Positions 2,736 to 45,721 of a stretch of DNA of 64,000 nucleotides are shown piece after piece. The position numbers and the translations under genes were made by a program. How positions within the stretch are numbered: the first letter of the stretch is position 1; each line of letters opens with the position of its first letter. Below the pieces are notes generated by a model. The model searched no databases. It was given only the letters and a program-made list of their open reading frames with translations, and was not told the DNA's origin. The DNA comes from Antedon mediterranea (Eukaryota; Echinodermata; Crinoidea; Comatulida; Antedonidae): contig NC_092677.1 in the NCBI RefSeq assembly GCF_964355755.1, forward strand, positions 17,516,101 to 17,580,100, read 5' to 3'.

Positions 2736-2985
2736 CCAGATTTGATTTAAAAACGGAATGTGAATTAATGGTGTCTATATCATCAGAAAGAGGCAATTTC
2801 AAATCCCTCCCTTTCCCCTGGTCATATATTGTATTGTTGCCTCCTCTGAAGAAATGATTTCAGTTACTGAGCCTATGAACCAGTCCTGTTCATAGGCCAT
2901 AGCAACAAACAACTGCCTCAGAAAATTGGCCAGGTTAAGGCATATGAATCCTACTGTATAATTCATTTCCTCTGTATACCAGGTC
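2736..2985 (-). pseudogene. C-terminal small-domain exon of a transposon-type protein
   Basis: The minus strand encodes FVAMAYEQDWFIGSVTEI followed by SSEEATIQYMTRGKG. This resembles the 'FVAVAYDDGWYVGEV...VNFM' module that ends many invertebrate transposon and host proteins (recognised by pattern, not named with certainty). A G-rich run near 2815 shifts frame; downstream the other frame reads LPLSDDIDTINSHSVFKSNL up to a GTACT donor-like site. The 49-bp minisatellite begins at the exon's upstream edge. The paralogue at about 42560-42625 keeps only the upstream part of the exon. Confidence 0.45.
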
Positions 2986-4798
2986 AAGGGATATCAATCC
3001 TACTGTATAATTCATTTCCTCTGTATACCAGGTCAAGGGATATCAATCCTACTGTATAATTCATTTCCTCTGTATACCAGGTCAAGGGATATCAATCCTA
3101 CTGTATAATTCATTTCCTCTGTATACCAGGTCAAGGCATATGAATCCTACTGTATAATTCATTTCCTCTGTATACCAGGTCAAGGCATATCAATCCTACT
3201 GTATAATTCATTTCCTCTGTATACCAGGTCAAGGCATATGAATCCTACTGTATAATTCATTTCCTCTGTATACCAGGTCAAGGCATATGAATCCTACTGT
3301 ATAATTCATTTCCTCTGTATACCAGGTCAAGGGATATCAATCCTACTGTATAATTCATTTCCTCTGTATACCAGGTCAAGGCATATGAATCCTACTGTAT
3401 AATTCATTTCCTCTGTATACCAGGTTAAGGCATATCAATCCTACTGTATAATTCATTTCCTCTGTATACCAGGTTAAGTCATATGAATCCTACTGTATAA
3501 TTCATTTCCTCTGTATACCAGGTCAAGGCATATCAATCCTACTGTATAATTCATTTCCTCTGTATACCAGGTTAAGTCATATGAATCCTACTGTATAATT
3601 CATTTCCTCTGTATACCAGGTTAAGGCATATGAATCCTACTGTATAATTCATTTCCTCTGTATACCAGGTCAAGGCATATGAATCATACTGTATAATTCA
3701 TTTCCTCTGTATACCAGGTTAAGGCATATGAATCCTACTGTATAATTCATTTCCTCTGTATACCAGGTCAAGGCATATGAATCATACTGTATAATTCATT
3801 TCCTCTGTATACCAGGTCAAGGCATATGAATCCTACTGTATAATTCATTTCCTCTGTATACCAGGTCAAGGCATATGAATCCTACTGTATAATTCATTTC
3901 CTCTGTATACCAGGTCAAGGCATATGAATCCTACTGTATAATTCATTTCCTCTGTATACCAGGTCAACGGATATCAATCCTACTGTATAATTCATTTCCT
4001 CTGTATACCAGGTTAAGGCATATCAATCCTACTGTATAATTCATTTCCTCTGTATACCAGGTTAAGGCATATCAATCCTACTGTATAATTCATTTCCTCT
4101 GTATACCAGGTCAAGGCATATGAATCCTACTGTATAATTCATTTCCTCTGTATACCAGGTCAAGGCATATCAATCCTACTGTATAATTCATTTCCTCTGT
4201 ATACCAGGTTAAGGCATATGAATCCTACTGTATAATTCATTTCCTCTGTATACCAGGTCAAGGCATATGAATCCTACTGTATAATTCATTTCCTCGACTG
4301 TATACCAGGTCAAGGCATATGAATCCTACTGTATAATTCATTTCCTCTGTATACCAGGTCAACGGATATCAATCCTACTGTATAATTCATTTCCTCTGTA
4401 TACCAGGTCAAGGCATATGAATCCTACTGTATAATTCATTTCCTCTGTATACCAGGTCAAGGCATATCAATCCTACTGTATAATTCATTTCCTCTGTATA
4501 CCAGGTTAAGGCATATCAATCCTACTGTATAATTCATTTCCTCTGTATACCAGGTTAAGGCATATCAATCCTACTGTATAATTCATTTCCTCTGTATACC
4601 AGGTTAAGGCATATCAATCCTACTGTATAATTCATTTCCTCTGTATACCAGGTCAAGGCATATCAATCCTACTGTATAATTCATTTCCTCTGTATACCAG
4701 GTCAAGGCATATGAATCCTACTGTATAATTCATTTCCTCTGTATACCAGGTCAACGGATATCAATCCTACTGTATAATTCATTTCCTCTGTATACCAG
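2931..4798. repeat. 49-bp minisatellite, about 38 units
   Basis: The unit begins CAGGTCAAGGCATATGAATC and continues CTACTGTATAATTCATTTCC then TCTGTATAC. Units differ mainly at C/T in CAGG(T)(C/T)AAG and at a six-base core that is CATATG, GATATC or CATATC. One unit near 4294 carries a small insertion in CCTCGACTG. Both flanks match the paralogous locus at 42570-42765, where there is exactly one unit, so the array arose by expansion of a single unit inside a mobile-element copy. Confidence 0.97.
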
Positions 4799-4901
4799 GG
4801 AAAGTTCATAAAGAATTCCTGTGGTAAGAAGAGACAAACAGATAAGAAACTTTTAAGCTATGAACACAGTTTTTGCTTAAAATTTTTTTTTTTAAAGTAA
4901 T

Positions 4902-5968: not shown

Positions 5969-6088
5969 AATAACATCCTGTCTCCGGTGTTTGACAGAAC
6001 TTGTCCTTTTGCCTTTCTCCGCAGTTTCACTATTTTAATTTTTTCTTATGGTCGGGACTGCATCGGCCTTAAGTTTTAGCGTGGATGG
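5969..6088 (-). pseudogene. 3' part of a THAP-domain exon split by the Copia insertion
   Basis: Immediately outside the 3' LTR the minus strand reads the end of a THAP domain, including the diagnostic AVPTI motif, then RKN and an in-frame TAA. A GTAAGT splice donor follows (exon end 5969). The frame is open across the insertion site if the Copia element and one copy of the GATGG duplication are removed: the other half lies at 15005-15201. The in-frame TAA after AVPTI, and a frameshift in the other half, suggest the gene was already decaying or belonged to an old THAP transposon. Confidence 0.65.
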
Positions 6089-6415
6089 TGTTAAGGTTGT
6101 AGGATTGTGAGCCATATCGATAACAGTATTTGACGCAGATACAAATGTTCTATCTAGAACTATAATAACTTTATTGTAATAAACTATACAAAGTACACAT
6201 CTACACAGTAGGAATAAATATGGAAGAGTGATTCACATAGAAGAATGTTATCATCTTAAGGAGTGAGCAAAGCAATGATGGATTGCTTTGTGGTCTGGGG
6301 ACAGTTCAGGTATATCATCTATTTCTTAGAACAGGAACTTTCACTTATCATCTATAGGTCAATGACCAGTAGGCTATTGGTAACATTTATTGTACAATGA
6401 GAGCACATTTTAACA
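6089..6415 (-). repeat. 3' LTR of the Copia element
   Basis: 327 bp, TG...CA ended. It matches the 5' LTR except at CAGTTCAGG versus CAGTTCCGG. An AATAAA signal on the minus strand near 6170 (also in the other LTR) is a plausible polyadenylation signal. Confidence 0.97.
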
Positions 6416-6424
6416 CTCCCACTT
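6416..6424 (-). other. Polypurine tract
   Basis: The minus strand reads AAGTGGGAG directly before the 3' LTR, the expected position and composition of the plus-strand primer in Copia elements. Bases 6425-6596 are untranslated. Confidence 0.8.
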
Positions 6425-6596
6425 GTTCTCATTTTTCTTAATTTTACAGTAATACTAATAATATTAAAAATCAAATATAATACAACATGCATATTCATCA
6501 AATTATAAAAGTATAAAAGTGTTTCTCTAATTTACCATATTAATTTTATAAAATGTATTACATTATTACATTGTACAGTGTGTGTATCACAACACA

Positions 6597-8017
6597 TCAT
6601 TGTCCAAAAATAAAATTCTTAAATTTACTTAACTTTAATTTTGTTGCTGGCTTAGTCATAATATCAGCAACCATTTCAGCTGTTGGACAGTAAACAACAT
6701 TTATTTTACCATCGTTTAATACATTTCGTATGAAGTGATATCGGATGTCAATGTGCTTGGACCTTTGTCGACTTACTGGGTTTTTAGTTAGGGCGATTGT
6801 GCCTTGATTATCTTCAAAAATTTGAATAGGCCCATATTGATATCCGCTAACAATTCCATCTAATAGTTGTATAAGGTACAAACATTCCTGAGTTGTTGCA
6901 GCTAGTGCCATGTATTCAGATTCACATGATGACAGTGCTACTGTGGTTTGCTTCTTTGATTTCCAGGAAATAAGTGGACCACAATTATTTAAACTAAAAC
7001 AGTAGCCAGTAGTACTACGTCTGTCCTCTGGGGATGATGCCCAATCAGCATCACTATAAGCTATCAATCTTAAATTTTCAGAGCACTTACTGTAACACAA
7101 CTCATGATTAATTGTACCTTTGAGATACCTTAACACATGTTTAGCTGCCACCCAGTGTTCAATTTTTGGATTTGACAAATATTGTGACAACTTTGTAACT
7201 ATCCAGCCTATATCTGGCCGGGTACATGTCATAGCATAAATTAAACTACCTACAACTTCACGATATTTTGTAGGGTCAATGGCCTCCTGGCTATTACATT
7301 CTAGTTTCTGTTCACATGGAGTAGACCTTGGTTTACAAGGTCTACAATCGGTCATTCCAAATTTGTCTAGCATTTTTGCTATATATCGACTTTGATTCAT
7401 TTTTACGGAACCTTTGGATTGTTTAAAATCAATACCAAGAAAATATGAAAGTTTACCAAGATCTTTCATATGGAATTTAGTTTTAACATTTCTTTAACTT
7501 TTGTCATCATGGACTCATTACTTGTCGCAATAATTAAATCATCAACCCATATGAGTAGTACAATCATCTCATTTTCTACATATTTAGTGTATACACAGTG
7601 ATCAACAGGGTTTTGTACAAAATTATTTTCACATAGAAAAGTATGCAATACATTGTTCCAATTTCTGCCAGATTGTTTCAAACCATACAGTGATTTATTT
7701 AATTTGTATACTAACTTTTTGTTAGAATTTGTAGGGACTTCAAAACCCTCTGCTTGCTCCATATAAATTTCACAGTCAATTGGAGCATTAAGATAAGCAG
7801 TTTTCACATCCATCTGATGTAAAATCAAATCATGTTGTGCTGCAATTTGCATCAAAATACGTACGGATGTCATACTGGCAGTTGGAGCAAATGTTTCATT
7901 ATAATCTACACCTCTTATTTGGCTATACCCTTTTGCAACATATCTTGCCTTATAGTTCTTTGAACCATCGGCAGTTTCTTTAGTAGTGTACACCCATCGT
8001 CCTCCCACTGAATTCAT
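6597..8017 (-). pseudogene. Copia reverse transcriptase and RNase H (RT 5'-truncated, one frameshift)
   Basis: RVT_2-type RT begins at VGGRWVYTTKE, about 15-20 residues into the normal domain. It contains QMDVKTAYLNAPI, the catalytic IWVDDLIIA and SLYGLKQSGRNW. RNase H follows with AYSDADWA, SCESEYMAL, EDNQGTIAL and RSKHIDIRYHFIRN, supplying the usual acidic and histidine residues. A single-base deletion near 7466-7480, next to an A-run, breaks the frame between RT palm and the MKDLGKLSYFLGI region, giving two overlapping reading frames. Upstream the frame is continuous with the polymerase sequence. Expected role: copying the element's RNA in cytoplasmic virus-like particles. As read, it is broken once. 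Confidence 0.9.
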
Positions 8018-11000
8018 ACCCCAAAAACTATTTAGCATTAATTTGGCCAGAGATCGAAGCCCAGGATTGTACGCAATGTCGTCATGATTCAAGTCGATAC
8101 CTTCTACGGTTCGATAGTCCGAAATGTATTTTTGTTTATCTTCGGGCGTTTTACACCATTCAGGCCAACCCGAAGCTTCTTGTTTCAATTTTAAAAATGT
8201 GTTAATGTAAGAGGCAAATAGACCGGACGAGGGAGAATCTGCAGAGTACGCGCTTTTATTTTTAAAGTGCCATACTACGTGAACTTTACGTATCTCGTAC
8301 CCAACCTCCACGGCTTTAGCGACCTCGATCGTTGCCCAAGAACCTGTAAATTCTCTATCTGTACCAGAATGATTGCAAGCGGTTTGTTGTTGAGAATCGA
8401 CGCATGTTCTACAGAGAGCAAACATTAATTTACCGTTTGATCTATAAGGTAAGACTGGATGGAATAAATTTTTAGGCGCTTCGATAGTACACTTTATCAA
8501 ACCGAAATATTCGTTGATATCTGTGGACAAGTCTTTGCGATCATCGATTTCAGGATGTCCTACGGGGTAGGTACCGTATTTATTTACATAAGGGTACAAG
8601 GAAGTATAATCGATGTAATTAATTTCTTCACCCGGTTTTACCTTATAGAACAAACAACTGGCATTAGTCCTCCCACCGAAAAACGCGTCTCTTGGATTCA
8701 AAGTTTGCCTAATGAAAGGAACTTTGGAGACGATAGATTTAATGTTAGGGGCCAGCGATTGTTTGATCCGTTTCCATTCGTGTTCCCAAATTTCGACGTA
8801 CTCAAAATCTGGAAATTGCTCCTTCAGAAACCGTGTTTTCTTACTTGTTTTGACAAAGCATTCCAACATGGCTTCGTTAGTGAAGGGGTTAATGGAATCG
8901 GGTCTATAACATTCTTGGCACCCGTGGAACAAACAGCCCATAAATTCAAAAATAATTTTGTTTTCTAAACATGCGCCGTCGACAAAGTAAGGCCCAAACA
9001 TTTTTTCCCCTCCATTTCTCGCATGATGGATAAAGACCCCCCTTTTATGCGACTCGTAGCACAACCATTCCATGCTAGAGTGAGAATGGTTAACGGTTGT
9101 TAGATACCCTGATGGTGGAAATAAAGCGATGGTGGATGGTTTTAAAAAATTTCTAGAAAAGACTACACGCCGAGGCAATTGTCATTAAATTATTTGAAAA
9201 GGGGTCAACGCCTCCGAGTAGAGGGTTTTTCGGCGATGTAGTTACTTTAAAAAAAAGATGCCTAAAAGTAAGACAACACTTTCTGAGAATATCTACATCG
9301 CTGATGCAATACTCGACGAGTTCTTTTTGGAGATTGAAAATTTGTTTAGTTACAATTTTCTGATTATACCATTTAAAGAATGATTCTCGGCCTGAAGTAG
9401 TCATTTTATCGGGGGAATAGGTGTTGAAATAATGAGGAAAGTAACCTTTTTTTAGCTCGGCGATGCCAAAAGTTTTGGGTAATTTGGATAGAGACATGGC
9501 TAGAAATGAAAGGGAATCAATGAATCGGATACTCGTTTCTTTAACCTTAATTGAAATAGGTTTACGACCGCGAGCAATAATATCTGGGACAATACAGTTT
9601 TTGTATAGGTACTCGAGCACGAAGTAACTATCGTAGCCCTGGAGGTTGTGAGCGATACACGTAATGTTATGATTATATTTGTATTCGTTAAAAACGTAAT
9701 TGCAAAAATCTACGCATGCAGTCTCCCCGTGAAAAGTCATTGATTTCTCCCCACACACGTCGCACTCGGCAGAGTCATTAGCACCATCGATACAATTAAG
9801 ACAAGTTTTTTGAAGAACGCATAAATTTGGTTTGTGTTCGCCAGTTTCTTGCGTGCATTCAAAATCAAAAAAGAAATATTTAGTGACAGCCTTTTTTTGG
9901 TCCTCCTGATTCTTAAACTTTTTTTCAGTATGTTTAGGGGCTACAACCGGTTCCATGTAGCATTGATGATCGTATGAAACGAAAGTCCGACAAATTCTAC
10001 AAAAACGGTTTTGACAATTGTGATCTTTTTGAATGATCCTATCACAAGTTGAACAATTTTTAATTTTGTCACATACTGAAACTTTTTTAGAATCAGGAGA
10101 TTTTTTATGATTGGTGAAGCATTGCAGGTGTTTAAAAAATCTATTGCACTCTTTACACTCTACAGTATTATTTACAGATACGTTAATAGAAGGGTCACAT
10201 TCGTGATGCTTACAGAGTACACACGTGTATTGACACTTGTGAGAATACTTGTGTGTATAACCTGTAAAACATCTATCACAAAAATAAAAAACTTTTAAAA
10301 AGCCTGTCATAGTCGTTATAAGATCATAATGATTAGAATGATGGTAAAGATAAATCTGCTTCTTACAATAATCGCCGCTAAAAATTACAGAATTTAAATT
10401 GTCTTTAGAAAGGACAATAATTTGATAATTTGGTAATTTGGATTGCATCTTTTTTAATTCCTCGATGCCGCAAGCTTGCTCCCTAACCCCCGAATCTCTA
10501 AGTAAATGAAGGGCGGCTGTCTTTTGCTGGTCATAGCTCTTCCTAATGTTATTCCACCTAGCCACGTTATTAATTTTATCTTCGAGCATAGAAATACCCG
10601 TGACAATTGCGCGTGCGCAGCAGATAGTTTCGTTACCATCATTCTTAATCTTAATTATGCTTTTAGCATTAATCATTTTGTCGATACCGTTTCTTCTATA
10701 GCCCCCACCCCTAGGCATTCTCATATGGAGAACGTTAAACTTAAATTTGTTGTTAATTAAAATATCCGTTTTGGACTGAAGGACCTTCATGATGGCTGCA
10801 AAAATAACATCAGCTGTCAGATGGGCCCTCCGACCAAAAGGAATAGAGATAGGTGTATCCAACCCCTCAGCTTGAATAACTATCCGAAGCATATCGTCGA
10901 CATGCACGTTAATGCAAAGATTATCAACGACATGTTCGAAAATTCTATATAGAGTGGGAAGGAACACCTCTAAACTTAAATGGTCTACATTAAAAAATTT

Positions 11001-11805
11001 AACCGTAAAATCGCTAATCGTGGCGTTAAAACGCTGGTTAAACCTATCAGCTAAGCGGTTAATACTACAAAAATGACTCAAATCTACCTCGTCAAGGTTC
11101 AATTCATCGCTGTCATTATCGTCAACTTCTTCTTCTTCGGCTATCCTTGGTCTTTTCCTGTTGGCTCCTTTCCCGTATTGTACCGGTACAGGCTGAAATA
11201 AAAAAGTATAACGGTAAAGAAATAGAAATAAACGATGTAATACAGTATCAACAATAGCAAAGAAAATAAAATGATAGTTACCTCATCAATAACCGAAGAC
11301 TCCTGAGAATCACTATCCTCGCCACATTCCCTCATTTTCAAACATTTGGTGTGTGCACCAATACCATACTAAAGAAAAAAAAAATTAAAAAATTAGAAAG
11401 GAAACGCATTGGAATTGTAAACGCAGAAGCACATTCGTTTACACAAGCTACTCTACGAGTTATATACGGTAATGAAAAAATTATTACGATAAAAATATAT
11501 TAAACAAAAACACTTACTTCTACGTGATCAATTATTAAACTTTCCGATAGATCTTGAACAATCTCTATGGCGTTATCACATATATCCGTAAGAGAAAGAC
11601 TACCGGTTTCAGAAATACTTTGACTGACCGGTAAATCAAAGTCCTGGTCTCCAAACACAAAATCCTCTAGTAAACCCACATCTGGGATATCATTGTCAGG
11701 CACATTATTAGCACGCGACAGATTAACTATAGCGTCAACAGCTCTTTGACACTCGATAAATAAACTATCGTTAGAATCAGTTGAGGAAGAAGCGAATTGA
11801 GACAT
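8018..11805 (-). pseudogene. Polinton/Maverick-type protein-primed DNA polymerase B, 3-exon gene, truncated
   Basis: Exons: 11805-11518 (ATG at 11805, acidic, donor GTAAGT), 11368-11282 (acceptor TTTCTTTAG, donor GTAACT) and 11192 onward (acceptor TTTATTTCAG). All junctions are phase 0, so the frame stays open. Exon 3 starts with a basic NLS-like KGANRKRPR, then a cysteine/histidine-rich zinc-finger region. The exonuclease motifs follow: DFEC (Exo I), HNLQGYDS (Exo II) and YCISDVD (Exo III). A frameshift at about 9165-9178 interrupts the frame. Motif A YIDYTSLYPYV and motif B KLMLNSFWG are present. Motif C (DTD) and the thumb are lost, because the frame enters Copia RT at about 8017. It would normally replicate the element from a terminal protein. 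Lacking motif C it cannot be an active polymerase. An organellar linear-plasmid polymerase is a less likely origin. Confidence 0.85.
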
Positions 11806-12209
11806 TGCAAAACTTTGAAGAAAAAAATCGGTACCAAAACTTTGAAGAATTAGTAAATGAATGATGAACTAAACAAGTAACACACGGTTATTAAAACCTT
11901 CCCGCGACGATTACGATTGGTCAGACATTCTTTAGTAATTAGGAAGCCCCCGCCCATAACAGTGACCATTAGAGCTAGCCTTCAACCGTGAATACGGGGG
12001 TCGGTAAACGGATTAATTAATAACAGTTGGGAGAATCGTTAAGGATTATTCAAGGTTTTGCAGTGGTCAAACAATATATACACGATTGGAAATTAATTAA
12101 CAATACCTATTCGAGTAACACTGAAACACTAAGTTATTAAACAAATTTAAAATAAAGCCGCCGTAAACTTTATTAAAATTCAAAAAATTAATCGACAAAT
12201 TAAGGCCTA
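11806..12209. other. Region upstream of the PolB gene, no coding signal
   Basis: AT-rich sequence upstream (minus strand) of the PolB ATG; presumably its promoter region. I see no other feature here. Confidence 0.4.
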
Positions 12210-12410
12210 TTAAGATGCAGGGTAGGGCCAGCCCAGGACCAACTCCCAATTCTGGTCCTCCATCTCCATTGCCCTACCCCGCAGCAGGTACCATAATGTA
12301 GTATCTGCCCTTGTTGTGAGCAGTAGTTCTCTAATGTTTTTGTACGAATCGATTCTCTTCACCAGATTCTCCAGGGCTTCAACTGTAATTGAGATTTTTG
12401 CTGAATCCAT
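12210..12410 (-). CDS. Small ORF of unknown function in the captured segment
   Basis: A 66-codon frame with ATG at 12410, reading MDSAKISITVEALENLVKRI and ending in GWPYPAS. The ATG follows TATAG; a GTAAGT donor-like site lies about 100 bp upstream (donor at 12513) and another at 12712, so the frame may be the last exon of a spliced transcript. It matches no family I know. Orientation is that of PolB and Copia. It could be one of the small accessory genes that Polinton-type elements carry, but nothing in the sequence proves it. Confidence 0.3.
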   Translation of the reverse strand: MDSAKISITVEALENLVKRIDSYKNIRELLLTTRADTTLWYLLRGRAMEMEDQNWELVLGWPYPAS

Positions 12411-12604
12411 CTATACATCAATACAATAACAATAATTAAAGAGGGTAACAATGATAATAAATAACAAAACAAACGAAAAAATACTAAGAATAAAAATATA
12501 AAAAGCAACTTACAGAAACGAATGAGCGATGAACAAAAAAAAAAAGCAAAAGAAAGATCTTCAACTCCGAGCAAAAAAAAACGGTTAATCAGTGGACTAG
12601 AGTG

Positions 12605-12624
12605 AGAGAGAGAGAGAGAGAGAA
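12605..12624. repeat. (GA)n microsatellite
   Basis: About ten GA units. From here to 13271 the sequence is AT-rich and noncoding apart from a poly-C tract. Confidence 0.9.
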
Positions 12625-12897
12625 CTATTAAAATCTATAACAAGAGAGAACTCCTCAAAAACAACAAAATACTAAATAAAGTCTACACCATGATAACAAC
12701 AACTGTACTTACATAACGTGGAAAAATCAGAAAATATTCTTTAAAGAGCAATGTACAAGGAACTACCGTAGCAGTGAATGGATGTACAGGCTGACAGATA
12801 TCAATGAGTTTTGAGATGATAATTTGGATGTAAAGATGCTTTTATAGGTTTTATAAAACAATCTTTCGATTGTTAAAAGAGGTTCCAATTACGTAAA

Positions 12898-12913
12898 CCC
12901 CCCCCCCCCCCCC
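12898..12913. repeat. Poly-C tract, 16 C
   Basis: An uninterrupted C run in AT-rich surroundings; exact length may be affected by sequencing error. Confidence 0.85.
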
Positions 12914-13271
12914 TAGCCTACACAGAAACCCTGAAATATTTTGAACGGTAACATTGGTAGCCTAGTGTTCAAAGAACAACAAATTTATTGTTAAAGGAAT
13001 GTTAACATGCCCTCTTGAACTAGTCTTAAAAACGTGTATAGGCTACAAAATAAATAAAACAAACATACTCCTTGAACATGTCTTAAAAACGGGTAACAAA
13101 ATAAATAATACAACGCATACCCTTAAATGTAGTAATCTACAGTATCTACATTAAAACTATAACCTTGTACCAAACAAAAAGAACAATGAACAAAGAAATT
13201 AGAAAATACTATACAAAAGTAACCTTTGCAGTGGACAAGTCGTCGAAATAAAACAATAGCACTCCTCAAAC

Positions 13272-13790
13272 AAAGAATGACCTTTCATTAATTTTTGTAA
13301 AATACAAATTCTTTACTAATTAGGAATATAACCTAGGTACCCAACAAAAACCTGTCAAAACAACAAAACCTTCTCAAGCAAAGAATGACCTTTCAATAAT
13401 ATTTTTAAAATACAAATTCTTTACTAATTACAAATATAACACAGGCCAAAACGAAAACCCCGCCAAAATAACAAACCCCCTTCTCTAACAAAGAATGACC
13501 TTTCGCTAATTAATATTACAATAACAGGAAATTAAACAATAGAAAATATAATATATACCCTGGGGATATGACATTCCTTTCGGGTCTGGTACAAAGAATG
13601 ACCTTTCACTAATTATTAATACAATACCTGGAAATTAAACAATAGAAATATGAAATATACCCTGAGGGTATGACATTCCATTCGGGTCTGGTACAAAGAG
13701 TGACCTTTCACTAATTATTATTACAATACCTGGAAATTAAACAATAGAAATATGAAATATGCCCTGGGGGTACATTACGGCCTGAAGTCC
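13272..13790. repeat. Diverged 102-109 bp tandem repeat, five units
   Basis: AAAGAATGACCTTTC (or one-base variants) recurs at 13272, 13381, 13490, 13593 and 13695. The later units share ACAATACCTGGAAATTAAAC and ACATTCC(T/A)TTCGGGTCTGG. The array ends almost exactly where the Copia protease stub stops, so it lies at the upstream junction of the foreign segment and could be the terminal or subterminal region of the donor element. Confidence 0.85.
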
Positions 13791-13798
13791 TACATCTA

Positions 13799-14704
13799 CT
13801 ACTTATGGGATGTTGCCCCGCAATCTACTAATAAATTACCATTACATAAATTACTATTAATACTTGCTTTGAATGCAAATTCAACTCCATCAGTTTCATC
13901 CTTTTCCAGCTGCACTGATTTTGCCGCAGTGACGTTACTTTTCTTCCTGCAAAACTTGGTGTCATGCGTTTTATTCTTGCATACTTTACACCACCTTCCT
14001 CGATCCTGTTTACTTCTGCATTCAAAGGATTTATGGCCTTGCTTCCCACATTTAAAACATACAATTCTTTCACTTTCTTGTGTTTTCATTACGCTGTCAT
14101 CTTTTGTCTCTCTTTGAGCCTTCTCCGACTCTTCGAAGCTTCTCAGCGCAATTTTAAAATCGGTAAAGTTTATCTCCTTTTCTTTTTGCATTATTACGGT
14201 CGCAAATGTCCGGAATCGCTGAGGTAGTCCTTTTAGGACCATAGCCACAAGCAAACTGTCGCTGATTTGTTCTTTAGCAGTTTTTAAACTTGTAGCTGCT
14301 GTTTCTGCACGAATAACGTAGTCAGTTACACGTTCGTGTTCGTCCATTTTTAATGAAGTAAGCTCAGTATATAGTGATATAATTCTTGGCTTACTTTTTC
14401 CCAAATAATGTTCCCGCAGGATTCCTAAAGCCTTTCTTCCATCATTCTTTGCGTCTCTCATTATCAAAGATAGACTTCTATCGTCCAGGTACTGCACAAG
14501 TTCGGCGAATGCATTACTATTTTTCGCCTCATCGGGAGCGGCTACTCCACCTTCGCTTTCCGGTACAATAATTTTACTTAATTTTTGTATGTGCAAATGT
14601 CCTAGGAACTTGACTTCCCACAACTCGTACTTAGTTTCGTCTCCATTAAATAAAAGCCGTTTACTGGGCCCATAACCTGTTAAGGTTGTAGGATTGTGAG
14701 CCAT
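13799..14704 (-). CDS. Copia Gag with truncated protease
   Basis: A 301-codon frame starting at ATG 14704. Residues up to about 200 resemble the Copia Gag (UBN2-type) fold, with RITDYVIRAETA-like text read here as HERVTDYVIRAETAATSLK. A CCHC zinc knuckle CFKCGKQGHKSFEC, for RNA binding, lies near residue 215. Near the end comes LLVDCGATSH, the protease active-site motif (normally DSGA), and the frame stops three codons later at the foreign-segment junction. The start codon sits 27 bp inside the LTR, and the tRNA primer-binding site is translated as part of Gag. Gag itself looks intact; protease beyond its active site is gone. Confidence 0.88.
   Translation of the reverse strand: MAHNPTTLTGYGPSKRLLFNGDETKYELWEVKFLGHLHIQKLSKIIVPESEGGVAAPDEAKNSNAFAELVQYLDDRSLSLIMRDAKNDGRKALGILREHYLGKSKPRIISLYTELTSLKMDEHERVTDYVIRAETAATSLKTAKEQISDSLLVAMVLKGLPQRFRTFATVIMQKEKEINFTDFKIALRSFEESEKAQRETKDDSVMKTQESERIVCFKCGKQGHKSFECRSKQDRGRWCKVCKNKTHDTKFCRKKSNVTAAKSVQLEKDETDGVEFAFKASINSNLCNGNLLVDCGATSHK
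14664..14677 (-). other. Primer-binding site for initiator tRNA-Met (anticodon arm)
   Basis: Directly after the LTR the minus strand reads GGTTATGGGCCCAG. This is complementary to CTGGGCCCATAACC, the anticodon arm of metazoan initiator tRNA-Met. Priming by an internally cleaved initiator tRNA half is the known mechanism of Drosophila copia. The match is 14 of 14. Confidence 0.88.
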
Positions 14705-15004
14705 ATCGATAACAGTATTTGACGCAGATACAAATGTTCTATCTAGAACTATAATAACTTTATTGTAATAAACTATACAAAGTACACATCTACACAGTAG
14801 GAATAAATATGGAAGAGTGATTCACATAGAAGAATGTTATCATCTTAAGGAGTGAGCAAAGCAATGATGGATTGCTTTGTGGTCTGGGGACAGTTCCGGT
14901 ATATCATCTATTTCTTAGAACAGGAACTTTCACTTATCATCTATAGGTCAATGACCAGTAGGCTATTGGTAACATTTATTGTACAATGAGAGCACATTTT
15001 AACA
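14678..15004 (-). repeat. 5' LTR of the Copia element
   Basis: 327 bp, same ends and length as the 3' LTR, one mismatch noticed. The near-identity means the insertion, or a gene-conversion event, is recent. The gag ATG lies within it. Confidence 0.97.
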
Positions 15005-15201
15005 GATGGTAGTCCCAATTTTCTTTTCATCATACAGGACGACTCAAAACATTCGTTTTCCACAAAGTGAACGCTGCATATTTTAGAATATTCATTAGTG
15101 CCTAGGAAAATCGGCTCTAGTAAACTGGACAAAACGAATCCACTGGCGTCTTATTCGTTTGAAGTTAGAACACAACCACCAACGACACAATTGACTGGCA
15201 T
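15005..15201 (-). pseudogene. 5' part of the THAP-domain exon hit by Copia
   Basis: ATG at 15201 is followed by MPVNCVVGGC, the start of a C2CH THAP zinc finger. Then, in another frame, comes RRQWIRFVQFTRADF, and after a further one-base shift EYSKICSVHFVENECFE, containing the C-x2-H pair. The text is unmistakably THAP, but the spacing is short and two frame changes are needed. It ends at the Copia target site; the AVPTI end lies at 5969-6088. THAP domains bind DNA in transposases and transcription factors. Probably an old transposase gene remnant. Confidence 0.65.
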
Positions 15202-19841: not shown

Positions 19842-22800
19842 GTTGAAAGCGTGTACGGTGAGCAGCTATTGCTTCAGTTTTGTTGGGACGGGCAAACTCG
19901 CTGCATAGTGGCGGTGGCACATCTTCAATTTGCATGATTTCGTTTTTACTGCAAGACATTACCAAGTCAACTAATTTACCAACATACTCTGCAAAATAAA
20001 AATTTCACCTTGATAATTTTGTTTAAATCATTTAAAACGTTAGTAATATTCAAAAAAAGTAAATAATTTACTGTACTTACCATAGGTTGGATTCACCATT
20101 ACACACTTTACAACTGATCCGCCTTTCTTGAACTTTGGAAAATTTATGGCATAACGCATCTCACCATCCTTGGTCTGGGCCTGACAACGTCCACCATTCT
20201 CATTGTAATGCAATGCAGCTAATAGTGTTCTGTAATTAACAAATAAACAAAAAGAAATAAAATTTGAAGACTTTTTTTTATATATAAATTGTATTTTAAT
20301 TATTATTATTTCATATTATTTACCTGCATTTTTGAACCCGAAATGTGAAGTGACATGCCTTTGGCGCATAATGGTTCAGAAGAGAGTGGAATGCTTCTAA
20401 TTTCGATGTCTGGTGCTTTTCGCTCATCTGTCCAATGTCTTTTACTAACCTCGGATTTGTGACGATGTCTTTAGTTTTGTTGGCAGCAATACTACCTGTT
20501 GAAAAAATATATAGTATTATTTGTTTTTTATCAAAACAAGAAAATATTTACATGCGGTTTAAGAAATAGAATATCTCACCTGGGATTAACCATTTCTTCC
20601 GTGGTTCACCATCACTGATTTCATCATGGAGGCAACAAGGGAAGAGATCACCATGACCTGTGTGCATATTCTGCATATGCCGCAACAACGAGTTCCACTT
20701 TGCAACCATGACTTCCCCGTCCCCGGACGGTGTTGACGTAGCGCACCAATATATGTGGTGGTTGATGCTCTTAGCCCATGGTCTCAAGTCTTGACCACAA
20801 ACCAACTTTGCTGCTGCGTCAATTTTTTTCTTGATTCCTTAAAAATGCAGAAATAAAATGTTACCAACACCCTATTAAAATAGCCAGATGTGAAATGTAG
20901 CGTTTCTAAACATTTGAAAGTCTCACCTTTAGCTATATGCCAAATGTCAAACTTGTGGGTTGTGCCGTCCATATTCTCACGAACCCACTTCTTGATCTGG
21001 GAGTGGCGGTCTGTCACCAACACATTAATTTTGACGTTTTCTTTCTTTAAACTCTCAACACCTCTTATAAGCCCTTCCTTTTCCATGGCGCTACTTGACG
21101 ATACTTCATTTGACTAAAGGACAACATCTATTTTTAATCAATACATGAAGATTTGGTTTAGCATTTATTAGCGATTTTTATAGTGAAATAATACCTACTT
21201 GAACAAGCTGTACGTCTAGAATTTTTCCACCACTTAGATCCATCAGAGTATAGCAGCCATACTTTGCAGAATGACCAGGAGAGTCGCACCTTCCATCACC
21301 TCCAACCACTAGTTTCTCATACTCCCTTGTATGCTGTATTCTGCACCTCCTATCCTCTTCCCATAGACGTTCGATACTTGGCAACAAAAAATTGCGCTGG
21401 TGAACAAAGAACGTCTGTTGGGAAATGGCAGCACATTGCATATGATTTAGCATCCGAAGTGCTTTTGATGGACTGGACCCTGAAAAAAGAATTGCTGCCG
21501 ATAACAGTAAATTGCCAGCTGGTGCATTCTGTATCTTTGGCTGTGACTCCCAATGTCGTGTGTAGTTGCAAGAAGGACATTGTTGCTTGACGCGGCAAAA
21601 GGTTCCTTGGACAAAACTTGTTGAACTGTCAGTTTCAGCACTACACATGGGACAAATTTGAAAAACAGCCAACAATCTGTCTTCGTAAACAATAAACTTT
21701 CGACCTCTAAAAGTATCTCCTGCTACATACTCCCTGAAAAATTGTATACAAATAAAAATGTTTAGGCTTACTTCAAATATTTGTTGGTAACTTTCATAGT
21801 ATTTAAACCATCACATGTTACACAAGTTGTAAGAGTTATTTGAAAACTCACATTTTCTCATCTTCATTTGCATCCATCCCTATGTCTTCCCATGGGTCAT
21901 AGTCTGGGTCGTTACAGTCATCATCATCGTTATCTTCTTCATCATCATCCTCCTCCTCCTCCTCTTCTTCTTCTTCTTCCTCCTCCTCTTCATCTTTTTC
22001 ACTGTCTTCTCCATCCACTTCTTCACGGCCTTCTTTAATGTTTGGTGTTCTAGAGGTAATTTTATAATCATTGGTGCTTTGGTCATCCTCTGGAAATATC
22101 TGTACTCCTAAAAAACATTAAAAAAAATAATCATTTAGTTTCATGAATTGTAAAATAGAGAGATTTTCCAAGGTGTGATATAGGCCTATAAAAAAAATTG
22201 TATTGGAACATGTACTGTATACTGGAATGAAATTTCTTTCCAGGAGAATAAAAAAGAAAATTACCTTTATCAAACATACGCGTCTTGAATTGAATACTTA
22301 AATTAGACGTCTTTACTTTAGGCTGCTTATGTTTGCAACAATCGCAATGAACAACAATTGGGTCCGTCTGGAAATGAAGGACATTGTTGAGATAATAAAA
22401 TTACATTCAAAAGTAAATACATTTTTATATTTGGTTGCTCATTGCATAATTTTTTTATATGTATCAAGTGTTAATTTGTTCCCAATTTACTCATTAAATG
22501 TTAATTGTAATCTTACCTGTACTTCTGCAACAGCTGTGTTATTTTCATCATCTGTAGTTTCAACTGATGATATCATGTCATCAAAGTCCATGTTGTCATT
22601 CTGTAGTAGAGGAATTTCTTGCAACACCTATCCATAAATAAATATACAGTAATTTATTATCCAATAATTATTAACTGACTACAGACTCAGACTCAAAAAT
22701 TTCATCTAAAATTGAATAGACTACCAAAAATGTACAGGCTAGTTAGGTAAGCCTAGGTTAATAGTAATACGAATCGTGTAGGTAGTGTAGGCTAGAGAGT

Positions 22801-23309
22801 AGTAGTAGGTCTGTACTAGTAACTTGAGTAGGTAGTGTGTAGTAGCATGTAGGCCTAGTACTAGTAGGCCTAGACTAGTAGGCCTAGACTAGTACTAGGT
22901 AGTAGTAGACAGTATCCTAGCTAGCCTAGCTAGGCCTATTTTATTTACTTACTCTTGCTCTCTCACGTTTTTCGTAGGCATTAGATCGTCTTTTCTTTTT
23001 GTTATTTGCAACCAGTTGCCCTGGAGGATCGGGCCGTTTAAAAACAGTTGGTATTGCTCCTTTTACCAGCCGCATATAATTGTTGCCACTCATCCCAATT
23101 GAACTTGCAAGTAAACTCCTTGCCTCGTAGTCCGTCTCCAGAAAATGATCGCTACATAGGACCGAATATGCCGAAGCTTGGAAATTGCTCCGTGTTCTCG
23201 AAACGGCATTAGTCCACTTCTTCCTCAAAATTTCATCTTTTGGGAACTTATGGAAGTTCACATTGTGTGTATGGTTGTTGTCACAACCAGCAGCTACACA
23301 ACGAGGCAT
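19822..23309 (-). CDS. THAP-domain DDE transposase, 10 exons
   Basis: Exons: 23309-22953, 22627-22517, 22367-22265, 22107-21852, 21733-21199, 21113-20927, 20837-20580, 20495-20324, 20229-20081 and 19988-19822. All introns are GT-AG and all phases join to one frame of 765 codons including TGA. Exon 1 is a THAP zinc finger (MPRCVAAGC, WTNAVSR, VLCSDHF, AIPTVF) for binding the element's ends. Exon 4 has a run of about 25 Asp/Glu, then DPDYDPWEDIG. Exon 5 has two CxxC pairs (CPMC, CPSC) and GDGRCDSPGHSAKYG, a likely first catalytic Asp (about residue 422). Exon 6 has VTDRHSQIKKW (second Asp, about 489) and FDIWHIAKG. Exon 8 has SKLEAFHSLLNHYAPK, a candidate catalytic Glu (about 636). No stops or frameshifts, so potentially active. 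Confidence 0.87.
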
Positions 23310-23437
23310 TTTAAAATGCTAAAATCTCTGTTTGAAAATGTGTGCTTTAAACTATCGATCGGTAAAATATGAATATGCACTATGTAATGAAACCACCGCG
23401 CCAAACACTGTTACTGCTTATGCGTCATTTCCGCTAA

Positions 23438-23766: not shown

Positions 23767-25340
23767 TATTATGCATCATACATACAGTTATACATTGTAG
23801 CATAGCATGTTCTAATTTGTTGGTATGATGACGTTATCAAAATAAACTTGAAGATGAAAATTTCGAAAGAATGAATGTAGCAAAAAAAAAATATAAGGTT
23901 TGGAAGAAAATTTGGCGTGTACATGTGCAATGCGCGCTCTTTAAAATTGTTATGAATGTGACGAAAGAGATGAAAAAAATTTTTTAATTCAACTGGCCAT
24001 ATCACAACATCCGATGTGAATTTTTATGTGAATTCATATCTAAATTTCAGCAGCTATCAATTTATTTTCACGAATCATTCTATTCCAACTCAAGTTCCAT
24101 CTTTGCTATATTAACAGTCCAGTCAACATTAGGGGATAGTGAATGAAAACTAACTATACCCTATATTACATAGTAATTTTTATATTAAAAGTCTAGACAC
24201 AATAATTGACAAATGAGTTTTAAGTCAATTACCAAACCAATGTTTATTAAAGAAAAGCAATAGAAAATAAAAATGCATTTCAACTTTTAAAATCCAAAAG
24301 GAAAACGAATTATACGGTCTTTTCATCGTTTTCGATAAATGTCATGGCGGGACATGTGTTATTTAAATTTTTTGGTTGGGAAATCTTTTTTTTTGTGAAG
24401 GCTAATGAAAATGTCAATGGTTATAATTATAATTTAATTGGTAAACAATGTAACATAATTGCAAAGAATGGTGAAATTAAACCAGCTAATTTAATGATTA
24501 TATTGCATTATTTTTTAGGGCAGTCGCATATGTGTATAAAAAGAAGGAAGTATTAAAAAATAATGTATTATAAATATAATAATAATCAATTTACTTACTT
24601 CTGAAACAGTCCCACGTACTGAAATCCTATGTTTTGTAGGAATTCGTGGGATATCGGCAATTTTGAGTACAGGGGAAATTGGTAGGCATCAATGAAAAAA
24701 AACTGCAAATATAAAAAAAGAAAGAAATGAATGAATGAACTAATTCTGTGATCTTTGTCGGTATGAATTTATGCATTACCGTACATTGAAAATGCTCAAA
24801 CTAAACAAGAAGCTGTTGTTGATACCAATGAAGGAAAAAAAAGAAAAAAAGGAAACATGGCTTCACAGATGATGGAAATAATTTATATTTGGCTAAATCC
24901 TTTTCCATCAATGATTGTGTAATATATTGGTATGAGGTTTCTGACTTGTAATGAAGACTCTTACTCGCTTAACTGTCGTAACACATATTGTTTATTCAAT
25001 AATACTTGATGCAATAATGATACAGTACAATATACAACTATAACTATAAGTTGATACAGGGGTGTTTAAGTGGGAATGATTGATCTTATCTGGGGAGGTT
25101 ACAATGATGAATTGGCCCTGTCGAATCTCTGCTTAAAACTGTCAATATCTAATTGTTTTACAATGGGAACGGTTAGAGAGGTCAAATAAACTGTTTACTT
25201 TTTGGATTTAATTATGAACTAAATGGACTAAATGTACTTGAAACATCTGGACAATTTCTCCTCTGGTCTTTCTGGGCCAAGTTTGTGAACTTAGTTGAAT
25301 TCTAATACAAAGGTTGATTTCTTAATTATAAAAGTATATC
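23762..25340. repeat. Paralogous block B, copy 1
   Basis: Matches 61827-63170 closely; copy 2 has an extra local duplication and one precise 23-bp inversion. It contains a minus-strand exon-like stretch at 24599-24705 with TTTGCAG acceptor and GTAAGT donor. One frame reads HRISVRGTVSE (OB-fold-like) but a second frame is also open, so the protein is uncertain. The early part, with TGATGACGTTATC and GCGCGCTCTTTAAAA, is a distant relative of the repeat at 52670-52900. Confidence 0.8.
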
Positions 25341-25351
25341 ATTATATTACA

Positions 25352-25727
25352 ATTGCTTCTTCCATCAAAACTCGAAACTCCCCTGGGTCTTGGTTACCTC
25401 TTGGGAGATGTTTAGCAGTTACAATTTATATTTGGCTAAATCCTTTTTCATCAATGATTGCTTCTTCCATCAAAACTCGAAACTCCCCTGGGTCTTGGTT
25501 ACCTCTTGGGAGATGTTTAGCAGTTACAATTTATATTTGGCTAAATCCTTTTTCATCACTGATTGCTTCTTCCATCAAAACTCGAAACTCCTCTGGGTCT
25601 TGGTTACCTCTTGGGAGATGTTTAGCAGTTACAATTTATATTTGGCTAAATCCTTTTTCATCAATGATTGCTTCTTCCATCAAAACTCGAAACTCATTTG
25701 GGTCTTGGTTACCTCTTGGGAGATGAA
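25352..25727. repeat. 105-bp tandem repeat, 3.6 units
   Basis: The unit begins ATTGCTTCTTCCATCAAAAC. It is a multiple of three and open in two plus frames. On the minus strand each unit reads HLPRGNQDPGEFRVLMEEAI, which looks more like real protein. The paralogue at 63186-63375 has 1.8 units. Confidence 0.92.
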
Positions 25728-25886
25728 GTTCCAAAGTTGAGGCAGTTAGGTATTATCCTTTTAAAATGTGACGTCTAGAGAAAAATCGGATCCTTATTTT
25801 TTCATAGAAACCCAGTGGAGGAATGGTATCTGCTCCGCTAACAAATATGAGGAAATCTTCTAGGTTGTTCTTGCCAACAAATCAAG

Positions 25887-43591: not shown

Positions 43592-44090
43592 CTAAACAGT
43601 ACCTGATTGTCTGTCGTTGATTGTAGCTGGCCTAGGTCTAGGCATTGGCCGCCGATTGCCAGCCATCCCAACCTCATTTGGTGCAAACGAGTCTCTAATA
43701 GAAACTAGGGCTGGATTGATACTGGGACGCCTACCTAGTATAGCATTCAATACAGCATAATGTTTGAAGTCTATTTCTTCCGTCCCAGCACCTGATTTGT
43801 TTGATTTGTCTTTAGCTGCCTTGAATGCAGCTTGCAGACATTTTATTTTGGTCTGGACATAATGTCCTTCTTTTTGGCTATGACCAAGATTTTGGAGTTT
43901 CAACGCAATTTCCTTGAAAACAGCCATCTTGTTGCCGACGCTAGCTTTCCAGTTTTTTTATTTCAAGCCTGTCTATATATTCAGGTCTGCCCCATAATGC
44001 AATCAAATCAACCACTTCTGTACTCTTCCATGTAACATGTTTAGTTTTGTTATTTTCGAATATTGCTGTTGATTGTAAAAAACTGGCCAT
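43592..44090 (-). pseudogene. Myb/SANT-like DNA-binding protein, one frameshift
   Basis: The ATG at 44090 starts MASFLQSTAIFENN, then HVTWKSTEVVDLIALWG, the first Myb/SANT helix. After a one-base shift in an A7 run near 43957 the frame continues GNKMAVFKEIALKLQNLGHS and KIKCLQAAFKAAKD, then KHYAVLNAILGRRPSINP. This is the typical 'Myb/SANT-like' protein encoded beside Harbinger transposases, which helps bring the transposase to the ends and the nucleus (family knowledge). A CAG|GTACTG donor near 43603 suggests further exons. It lies just beyond copy 2 of the Harbinger-like block, as expected for the second gene. The frameshift may be a sequencing error in a homopolymer. Confidence 0.75.
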
Positions 44091-44464: not shown

Positions 44465-44768
44465 ACTTTTGCACTTGTGGCATTAGAGAAATTGCGTTAA
44501 ACTGGTTTGAAAGTTATTTAGTAAACCGTAAACAATATGTTGCGTTATAGGCTCATTTAAATCATCAGTGGAGGCTGTGAATTGGGTCGGTTTTAGGACC
44601 ACTACTATTTTTAATTTACGTAAATGATCTTTCTAGATCAAGTGACACTCTGAAAGTCATATCCTTTGCTGATGATACTACGATTTTGTATTCTCATTCT
44701 GATATCAATGTCTTATATAAAACCGTCAACACTGAACTAAATCAAATGACTGACTGGTCAAAAACCTA
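44465..44768 (+). pseudogene. Non-LTR reverse transcriptase fragment (palm)
   Basis: Plus frame with IREIALNWFESYLVNRKQYV, two in-frame stops, then GPLLFLIYVNDL and the catalytic ISFADDTTILY. It ends at TDWSKTY, where it joins an endonuclease-end fragment of the same general type, i.e. in the wrong order. Confidence 0.75.
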
Positions 44769-45721
44769 TCTTGTTATACTAAAAAATTAATTGATATTGC
44801 TAAAAATTTTCATCTAACTCAATTAATAACTGAGCCAACGAGAATCACAGAAAATAGTAGTACTTTAATAGACCATATTTACACAACAGTTCCTAATAGT
44901 ATCTCCAAATCAGGTGTTTTACATACAGGTATCAGTGACCATTCTGCTATCTATGTAATTGTTGGTAAACAAGAAAAGTGTAAAGCTCATAAGCATAAAT
45001 ATAAAACAAGTAGAAACTACAAACATTTTAATGAAAATGAATTTAAAAGGGATATTGAAAAAATAAACTGGCAAGAAATTCAACATTATAATGATATTGA
45101 TGACGCTACATATTTTTTCGAATCTAATTTTCTTAAAATTGCTAATGATTATGCCCCGCTAAAAAAGAAGAGGGTGCGAAACAAAACTAGTCCTTGGCTA
45201 ACAGATGATCTAGTTAGGTCTATTCGTAAGCGTGATGTACTAAAAAAGAAAGCATCTAAAACTAATACACCTGAAATGTGGGCTCAATACAAACTAAGTA
45301 AAAATAAGGTAAATGCTGAAATAAAGAAATGTAAAAAAGAATATTTTTCTAAACAATTAGATACAAAAGATTAAAGAAAATATGGGAAACTTTAAGATAT
45401 ATTGTCCCAGCAAAGAGTATAAACACTGAAATATCAAACTTAAAAACAAATGATAACAAACTAACAGCAGACTCTTCTAAAATAGCCAACAATTTAAACA
45501 AATATTTTTCTAAAATAGGACCTGACCTTGCAAAAAACATCCCACCAGAAATTCCTAGATTACTTATTGTAAATAATACTAATCAAAGTAGGGACCTACT
45601 TAAATTTAGTTTTGTTAATCAGGAATATATTTATAAACAATTAAACGCACTCGATGTTAGTAAAGCGACAGGCTTAGATGAGCTTCCAGCTAAAATGTTT
45701 ACCATTGTATACCCACTCTAA
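44769..45721 (+). pseudogene. Non-LTR retrotransposon ORF2 fragment: endonuclease end to RT start
   Basis: Plus frame reading HLTQLITEPTRIT, STLIDHIYTT, TGISDHSAIYVIV (the SDH motif closing an APE-type endonuclease). The linker follows (TSPWLTDDLVRSIRKRDVLK; KNKVNAEIKKCKKEYF) to a stop at 45374. In a shifted frame NNLNKYFSKIGPDLA, then ALDVSKATGLDELPAKMF, the RT start. Truncated at 45721. CR1/Rex/Jockey-type by pattern. At least one frame break. Confidence 0.8.

Follow-up and report, generated by a model that had tools for sequence, protein, structure and literature searches.

An in-frame joint between a Polinton-type DNA polymerase and a Copia reverse transcriptase in Antedon mediterranea, most likely a product of nested transposons

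In the genome of the crinoid Antedon mediterranea, a single reading frame runs from a protein-primed DNA polymerase B of the Polinton type into a Copia reverse transcriptase (RT). This raises the question of whether the locus holds a chimeric element that transposed as a unit, or what is left after one mobile element landed in another and part of both was lost. The preliminary description of this DNA had offered both models. The window analysed here is the whole stretch of 64,000 nucleotides, within which a Copia-type LTR element occupies positions 6089-15004 on the minus strand. Inside the element, 5.8 kb with the polymerase lies in the place of the missing Copia integrase and RT start. What looks like a fusion protein is, as set out below, most likely ordinary debris of nested transposons.

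The Copia part of the element consists of the following features, the two target-site copies having been read directly from the sequence.

6084-6088, unstranded: target-site duplication GATGG, left copy
6089-6415, minus strand: Copia LTR, the 3' LTR of the minus-strand element, 326/327 identical to 14678-15004
6597-7493, minus strand: frame with the end of the Copia RT and RNase H (end of RVT_2, E 1.6e-12; tblastn with P0121, 68% over 292 columns)
7484-8020, minus strand: Copia RT with its start missing (RVT_2, E 1.6e-55; tblastn with P0121, 77% over 179 residues)
13799-14821, minus strand: Copia gag with zinc knuckle and the protease start DCGATSH (Retrotran_gag_2, E 6.5e-21; zf-CCHC)
14678-15004, minus strand: Copia LTR, the 5' LTR of the minus-strand element, adjoined at 14664-14677 by the primer-site candidate GGTTATGGGCCCAG
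15005-15009, unstranded: target-site duplication GATGG, right copy

The LTRs are 327 bp long, have TG..CA ends and differ by one mismatch, and GATGG stands on both flanks; the near-identical LTRs and perfect target duplication claimed earlier are thus borne out. The primer-site candidate GGTTATGGGCCCAG beside the 5' LTR would pair with the anticodon region of initiator methionine tRNA, the primer type of Drosophila copia. A purine-rich tract candidate is present in the element as well. A tRNA scan of the window returned 0 genes, and G+C by segment within the element, at 0.331 to 0.394, was uninformative.

In Copia order, the element retains gag with its zinc knuckle and the protease site (Retrotran_gag_2, zf-CCHC, DCGATSH), followed at its other side by RT and RNase H (RVT_2; C-terminal residues 587-873 of P0121). 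The latter protein, a Copia polyprotein piece from Oculina patagonica, matches the window at E <= 1e-5 only from residue 406 on, and its residues 1-405, the integrase side, have no match in the window at that threshold. With no integrase upstream of the RT, this copy is a truncated Copia and not a complete one. In the relatives P0126, P0131 and P0213, the protease site is separated from VGGRW by 569, 552 and 569 residues, respectively. About 550-570 Copia codons are gone from the present copy, comprising the end of the protease, the integrase and the start of the RT, and the remaining portion of the Polinton is gone too.

The polymerase and its joint to the RT, here called the near junction, are made up as follows.

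8018-8020, minus strand: near junction, one codon (G) common to the P0001 alignment, which ends at 8018, and the P0121 alignment, which starts at 8020
8018-9181, minus strand: palm region of the Polinton polymerase B as far as motif B, open in the fused frame (DNA_pol_B_2, E 4.5e-17; P0001 283/284 identical, 8018-8869)
9153-11192, minus strand: Polinton polymerase B exon 3, the N-terminal, cysteine-rich, exonuclease part, with a frame break near 9170 (DNA_pol_B_2, E 9.9e-19; P0241)
11282-11368, minus strand: polymerase exon 2, with GT-AG introns on either side (P0241 29/29 identical)
11518-11805, minus strand: polymerase exon 1, MSQFASSS.. (P0241 residues 1-96 identical)

The fused minus-strand ORF, 7466-9181 (571 aa), reads ..LAKLMLNSFWG and continues directly into MNSVGGRWVYTTKE.. 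with no stop between the DNA polymerase B and the Copia RT. Pfam domains were found on both sides in the same frame, DNA_pol_B_2 at residues 164-337 (E 4.5e-17) and RVT_2 at residues 389-567 (E 1.6e-55), which confirms the stop-free passage from KLMLNSFWG to VGGRWVYTTKE described at the outset. The polymerase side ends at motif B (..NSFWG; motif C is YYDTDS), and the RT side begins MNSVGGRWVYT... In alignment with Copia relatives, the Copia side of the joint reads (G)MNSVGGRW in the window versus GKNSVGGRW in P0121. A deletion repaired by end-joining would be expected to leave a one-codon overlap like the one at 8018-8020.

Neither parental start is connected to the fused frame. A shift in the polymerase frame at about 9170 separates it from the polymerase start codon, and the RT frame is also shifted, at about 7480, inside the Copia half. 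The polymerase half stops short of motif C and everything beyond it, while the RT half is startless and frameshifted, so no working enzyme would be expected from this ORF. No PDB sequence matched the fused ORF at E <= 1. Among random break pairs in both frames, 6481 of 20000 joints (32%) were open for at least 100 codons, about the plain expectation of one in three and in agreement with the one-in-three chance of an in-frame landing that had been put forward.

The polymerase itself has a close relative in the same species. P0001 from Antedon mediterranea is identical in 283 of 284 residues up to FWG, then continues KFGQREN..YYDTDS, and since it runs past FWG to YYDTDS, an unfused relative of this polymerase exists. 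P0001 represents a cluster of 15 sequences, not all of them necessarily separate genome copies. Near the start of the polymerase gene lie two canonical GT-AG introns, 11193-11281 and 11369-11517 on the minus strand, which agree with the exons of the NCBI Antedon gene model P0241. Both are retained, in sense with the Copia transcript. P0241 may have been modelled on this very locus, since its last 20 residues correspond to window positions 9996-9937 in another frame. As it possibly comes from the same locus, it was not counted as an independent copy.

A protein-primed family B polymerase of the Polinton kind is thus present (DNA_pol_B_2 in both frames; P0001 and P0241), cut at motif B. Pfam scans of the 13 ORFs of at least 80 aa within 6089-15004 found gag, the zinc knuckle, RVT_2 and DNA_pol_B_2 and nothing else; capsid proteins, a packaging ATPase and a retroviral-type integrase were not among the matches. 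The Polinton part is a remnant, not a whole Polinton. In viral_contigs, from which the window's own or a near genome was possibly left out, the joint as a 29-base pattern had 0 matches, and related loci were confirmed in 0 of 2 stretches found by P0001 and in 0 of 75 found by alignment A3.

At the far junction, on the other side of the insert, the Copia frame meets a sequence resembling a Polinton end.

13262-13772, unstranded: tandemly repeated units of about 100-108 bp, lying between the Polinton terminus and the polymerase and close to the former
13798-13803, minus strand: Polinton terminus by its sequence, (AGT)2 on the minus strand, an end motif published for vertebrate Mavericks
13804-13809, unstranded: TATGGG, 6 bp beside the terminus, in the place of a Polinton target duplication, without a counterpart at the near joint

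The far junction falls at 13803/13804. On the minus strand ..GATTGCGGGGCAACATCCCATA is joined to AGTAGTAGATGTAGG.., so that the Copia protease site DCGATSH gives way to the (AGT)2 end; with a longer right side, GATTGCGGGGCAACATCCCATA is followed by AGTAGTAGATGTAGGACTT, which starts AGTAGT. The gag frame stops inside the Polinton terminus (..LLVDCGATSHK, then a stop), and the protease codons are interrupted there. The polymerase reads inward from the (AGT)2 end, and the insert extends 2 kb upstream of the polymerase start to reach this Polinton-type DNA end. Both joints that the preliminary description had placed at about 8017 and 13795 are therefore present, but their positions had to be refined to 8018-8020 and 13803/13804.

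PMC8097293 gives 5'-(AGT)2//(ACT)2-3' as the commonest end motif of vertebrate Mavericks, a motif published for vertebrates and not for crinoids, and describes gene modules directed towards the middle of the element in most of them, with 6-bp target duplications in intact Mavericks. With 41 instances of AGTAGT or its complement in the 64-kb window, the hexamer is weak by itself; its weight comes from its position at 13798-13803 on the minus strand, exactly where the Copia frame breaks off. No full Polinton with the same end as the terminus at 13803 was seen. Of the six occurrences of TATGGG or its complement in the element, none lies at the near joint, and the second target copy has therefore been lost. 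Likewise, a second Polinton end was not found in the element. The insertion is read from one end only, and because just this end remains, ends and target copies cannot be paired.

Elsewhere in the window, a long minisatellite with a 49-bp unit occupies 2783-4800; a 300-nt reference fits 39 register positions, 94-98% alike in the middle of the array. Another tandem array, at 25295-25740 (plus strand), contains ORFs built of the in-frame repeat ..IASSIKTRNSPGSWLPLGRCLAVTIYIWLNPFSS... An ORF at 22941-23318 (minus strand) carries a THAP domain (E 4.9e-18) and probably derives from a transposon or a host gene. At 21178-21810 (minus strand) there is a weak match to a Mutator-like transposase (E 0.0014, below the curated cut-off), and at 43592-43957 (minus strand) a Myb/SANT-like DNA-binding domain is weakly matched (E 1.7e-05, slightly under the curated cut-off). 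Two overlapping frames at 44754-45721 (plus strand) may be a broken LINE; the first has a weak match to Exo_endo_phos_2 (endonuclease-RT; E 0.0013, below the curated cut-off) and the second has no match.

The locus is very probably explained by insertion of a Polinton into an integrated Copia, with a deletion, subsequent or part of the same event, that joined two genes in frame by chance. In this sequence of events, a Copia copy would already have been integrated when a Polinton (Maverick) landed in its protease gene. A deletion from inside the polymerase to inside the RT, later or at once, would then have taken out the Copia integrase, the RT start and the far portion of the Polinton, and the two leftover genes would have come to lie in one frame by chance. 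The (AGT)2 at the far junction, the unfused Antedon polymerase, the one-codon overlap at the near junction and the roughly one-in-three odds of an open frame all support this one of the two models first offered. The order of events given here is the probable one, end-joining is the probable mechanism of the deletion, and this copy of the element is presumably inert. Because the LTRs are nearly identical, insertion and deletion would be young, or would have been one event. The one-event form, which is counted within this explanation, is possible but doubtful: broken or replicating Polinton DNA would have joined the Copia, one end by its own integrase and the other by host end-joining, with Copia sequence deleted at the same moment. 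A single event would cover the one canonical end, the internal break with its one-codon overlap and the young LTRs, but on this copy alone it is indistinguishable from insertion followed by deletion, with no second locus for comparison.

The other model has the composite arising within an earlier copy of Copia and being carried on as a unit by the proteins of intact Copia copies. It found no positive support and is highly improbable, although the LTRs, the target duplication, the primer-site candidate and the purine-rich tract candidate are all in place. The fused frame lacks a link to a parental start, and the two retained introns, lying in sense with the Copia transcript, argue mildly against passage through RNA. 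Furthermore, NSFWG and VGG[RK]WVYT were found together in 0 of the 357 proteins among the matches listed, a weak test, as these represent the best 120 of 3659, 2221 and 213 matches in three homology searches. Among these same listed matches, 90 have NSFWG and 91 the shorter VGG[RK]WV; in the 88 with three further residues after NSFWG, the next one is K or R in 87 (55 of them KFG), MYH follows in one and MNS in 0. A literature search brought no Copia-Polinton polymerase fusion to notice, and absence from print is not claimed. That the composite acts as a retroelement which is non-autonomous, depends on intact Copia copies in trans for its movement and spreads a viral-type polymerase gene fragment fused to RT through the crinoid genome is rated a little lower again. 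Even less credence is given to a false assembly of a Polinton with a Copia copy. Polinton polymerases are likely to be repetitive in the genome, P0001 standing for its cluster of 15 sequences, but the same 5-bp duplication at both element ends (chance about 1/1024) and LTRs that pair at 326/327 agree across both joints, and misassembly was judged unlikely on these grounds. Least credible of all is a template switch by RT between Copia RNA and a Polinton polymerase messenger. It would yield same-sense joints and flanking LTRs, but it was rejected since the introns are unspliced and the insert extends 2 kb beyond the polymerase start, on the upstream side, to the Polinton-type DNA end.

Two kinds of mobile element can thus, through nested insertion and deletion, yield a long in-frame chimeric ORF that resembles a new enzyme. 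Copies of the composite at several sites, each with its own target duplication, would instead make it a retroelement with part of a viral-type DNA polymerase, which would bear on the spread of such genes.

Compared with known systems, the insert resembles Polinton/Maverick elements, including adintoviruses, in having a protein-primed PolB that points inward from an (AGT)2 end. Its best protein matches, among those listed, are the crinoid polymerases of Antedon (P0001) and Anneissia (P0002); P0015, the PolB-C of a coral adintovirus, covers 67% of the query with a match of 49%. Unlike such elements, it has one end, a polymerase cut at motif B, and no capsid, ATPase or integrase match. Its polymerase also has two introns, in contrast to intact Mavericks of vertebrates, which PMC8097293 describes as intronless. 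The surrounding element shares with Ty1/Copia its TG..CA LTRs, 5-bp duplication, gag zinc knuckle, protease site, and RVT_2 and RNase H end in Copia order, and its RT is 77% identical to P0121 of Oculina patagonica. It differs in that the integrase and RT start are replaced by the Polinton part, and its primer-site candidate is distinct from the PBS TGGTAGCAGAGC given for GalEa1 and CoRex1 in PMC3587641. Finally, fusions of pPolB are described for polinton-like viruses in PMC12721341 (the helicase-pPolB of Oxyrrhis OmPLV, and Tlr1), the OmPLV fusion occurring in ten elements. In contrast to the OmPLV fusion, the polymerase here is cut within its catalytic part and one copy of the joint is known; what the two have in common is a protein-primed polymerase frame joined to another enzyme.
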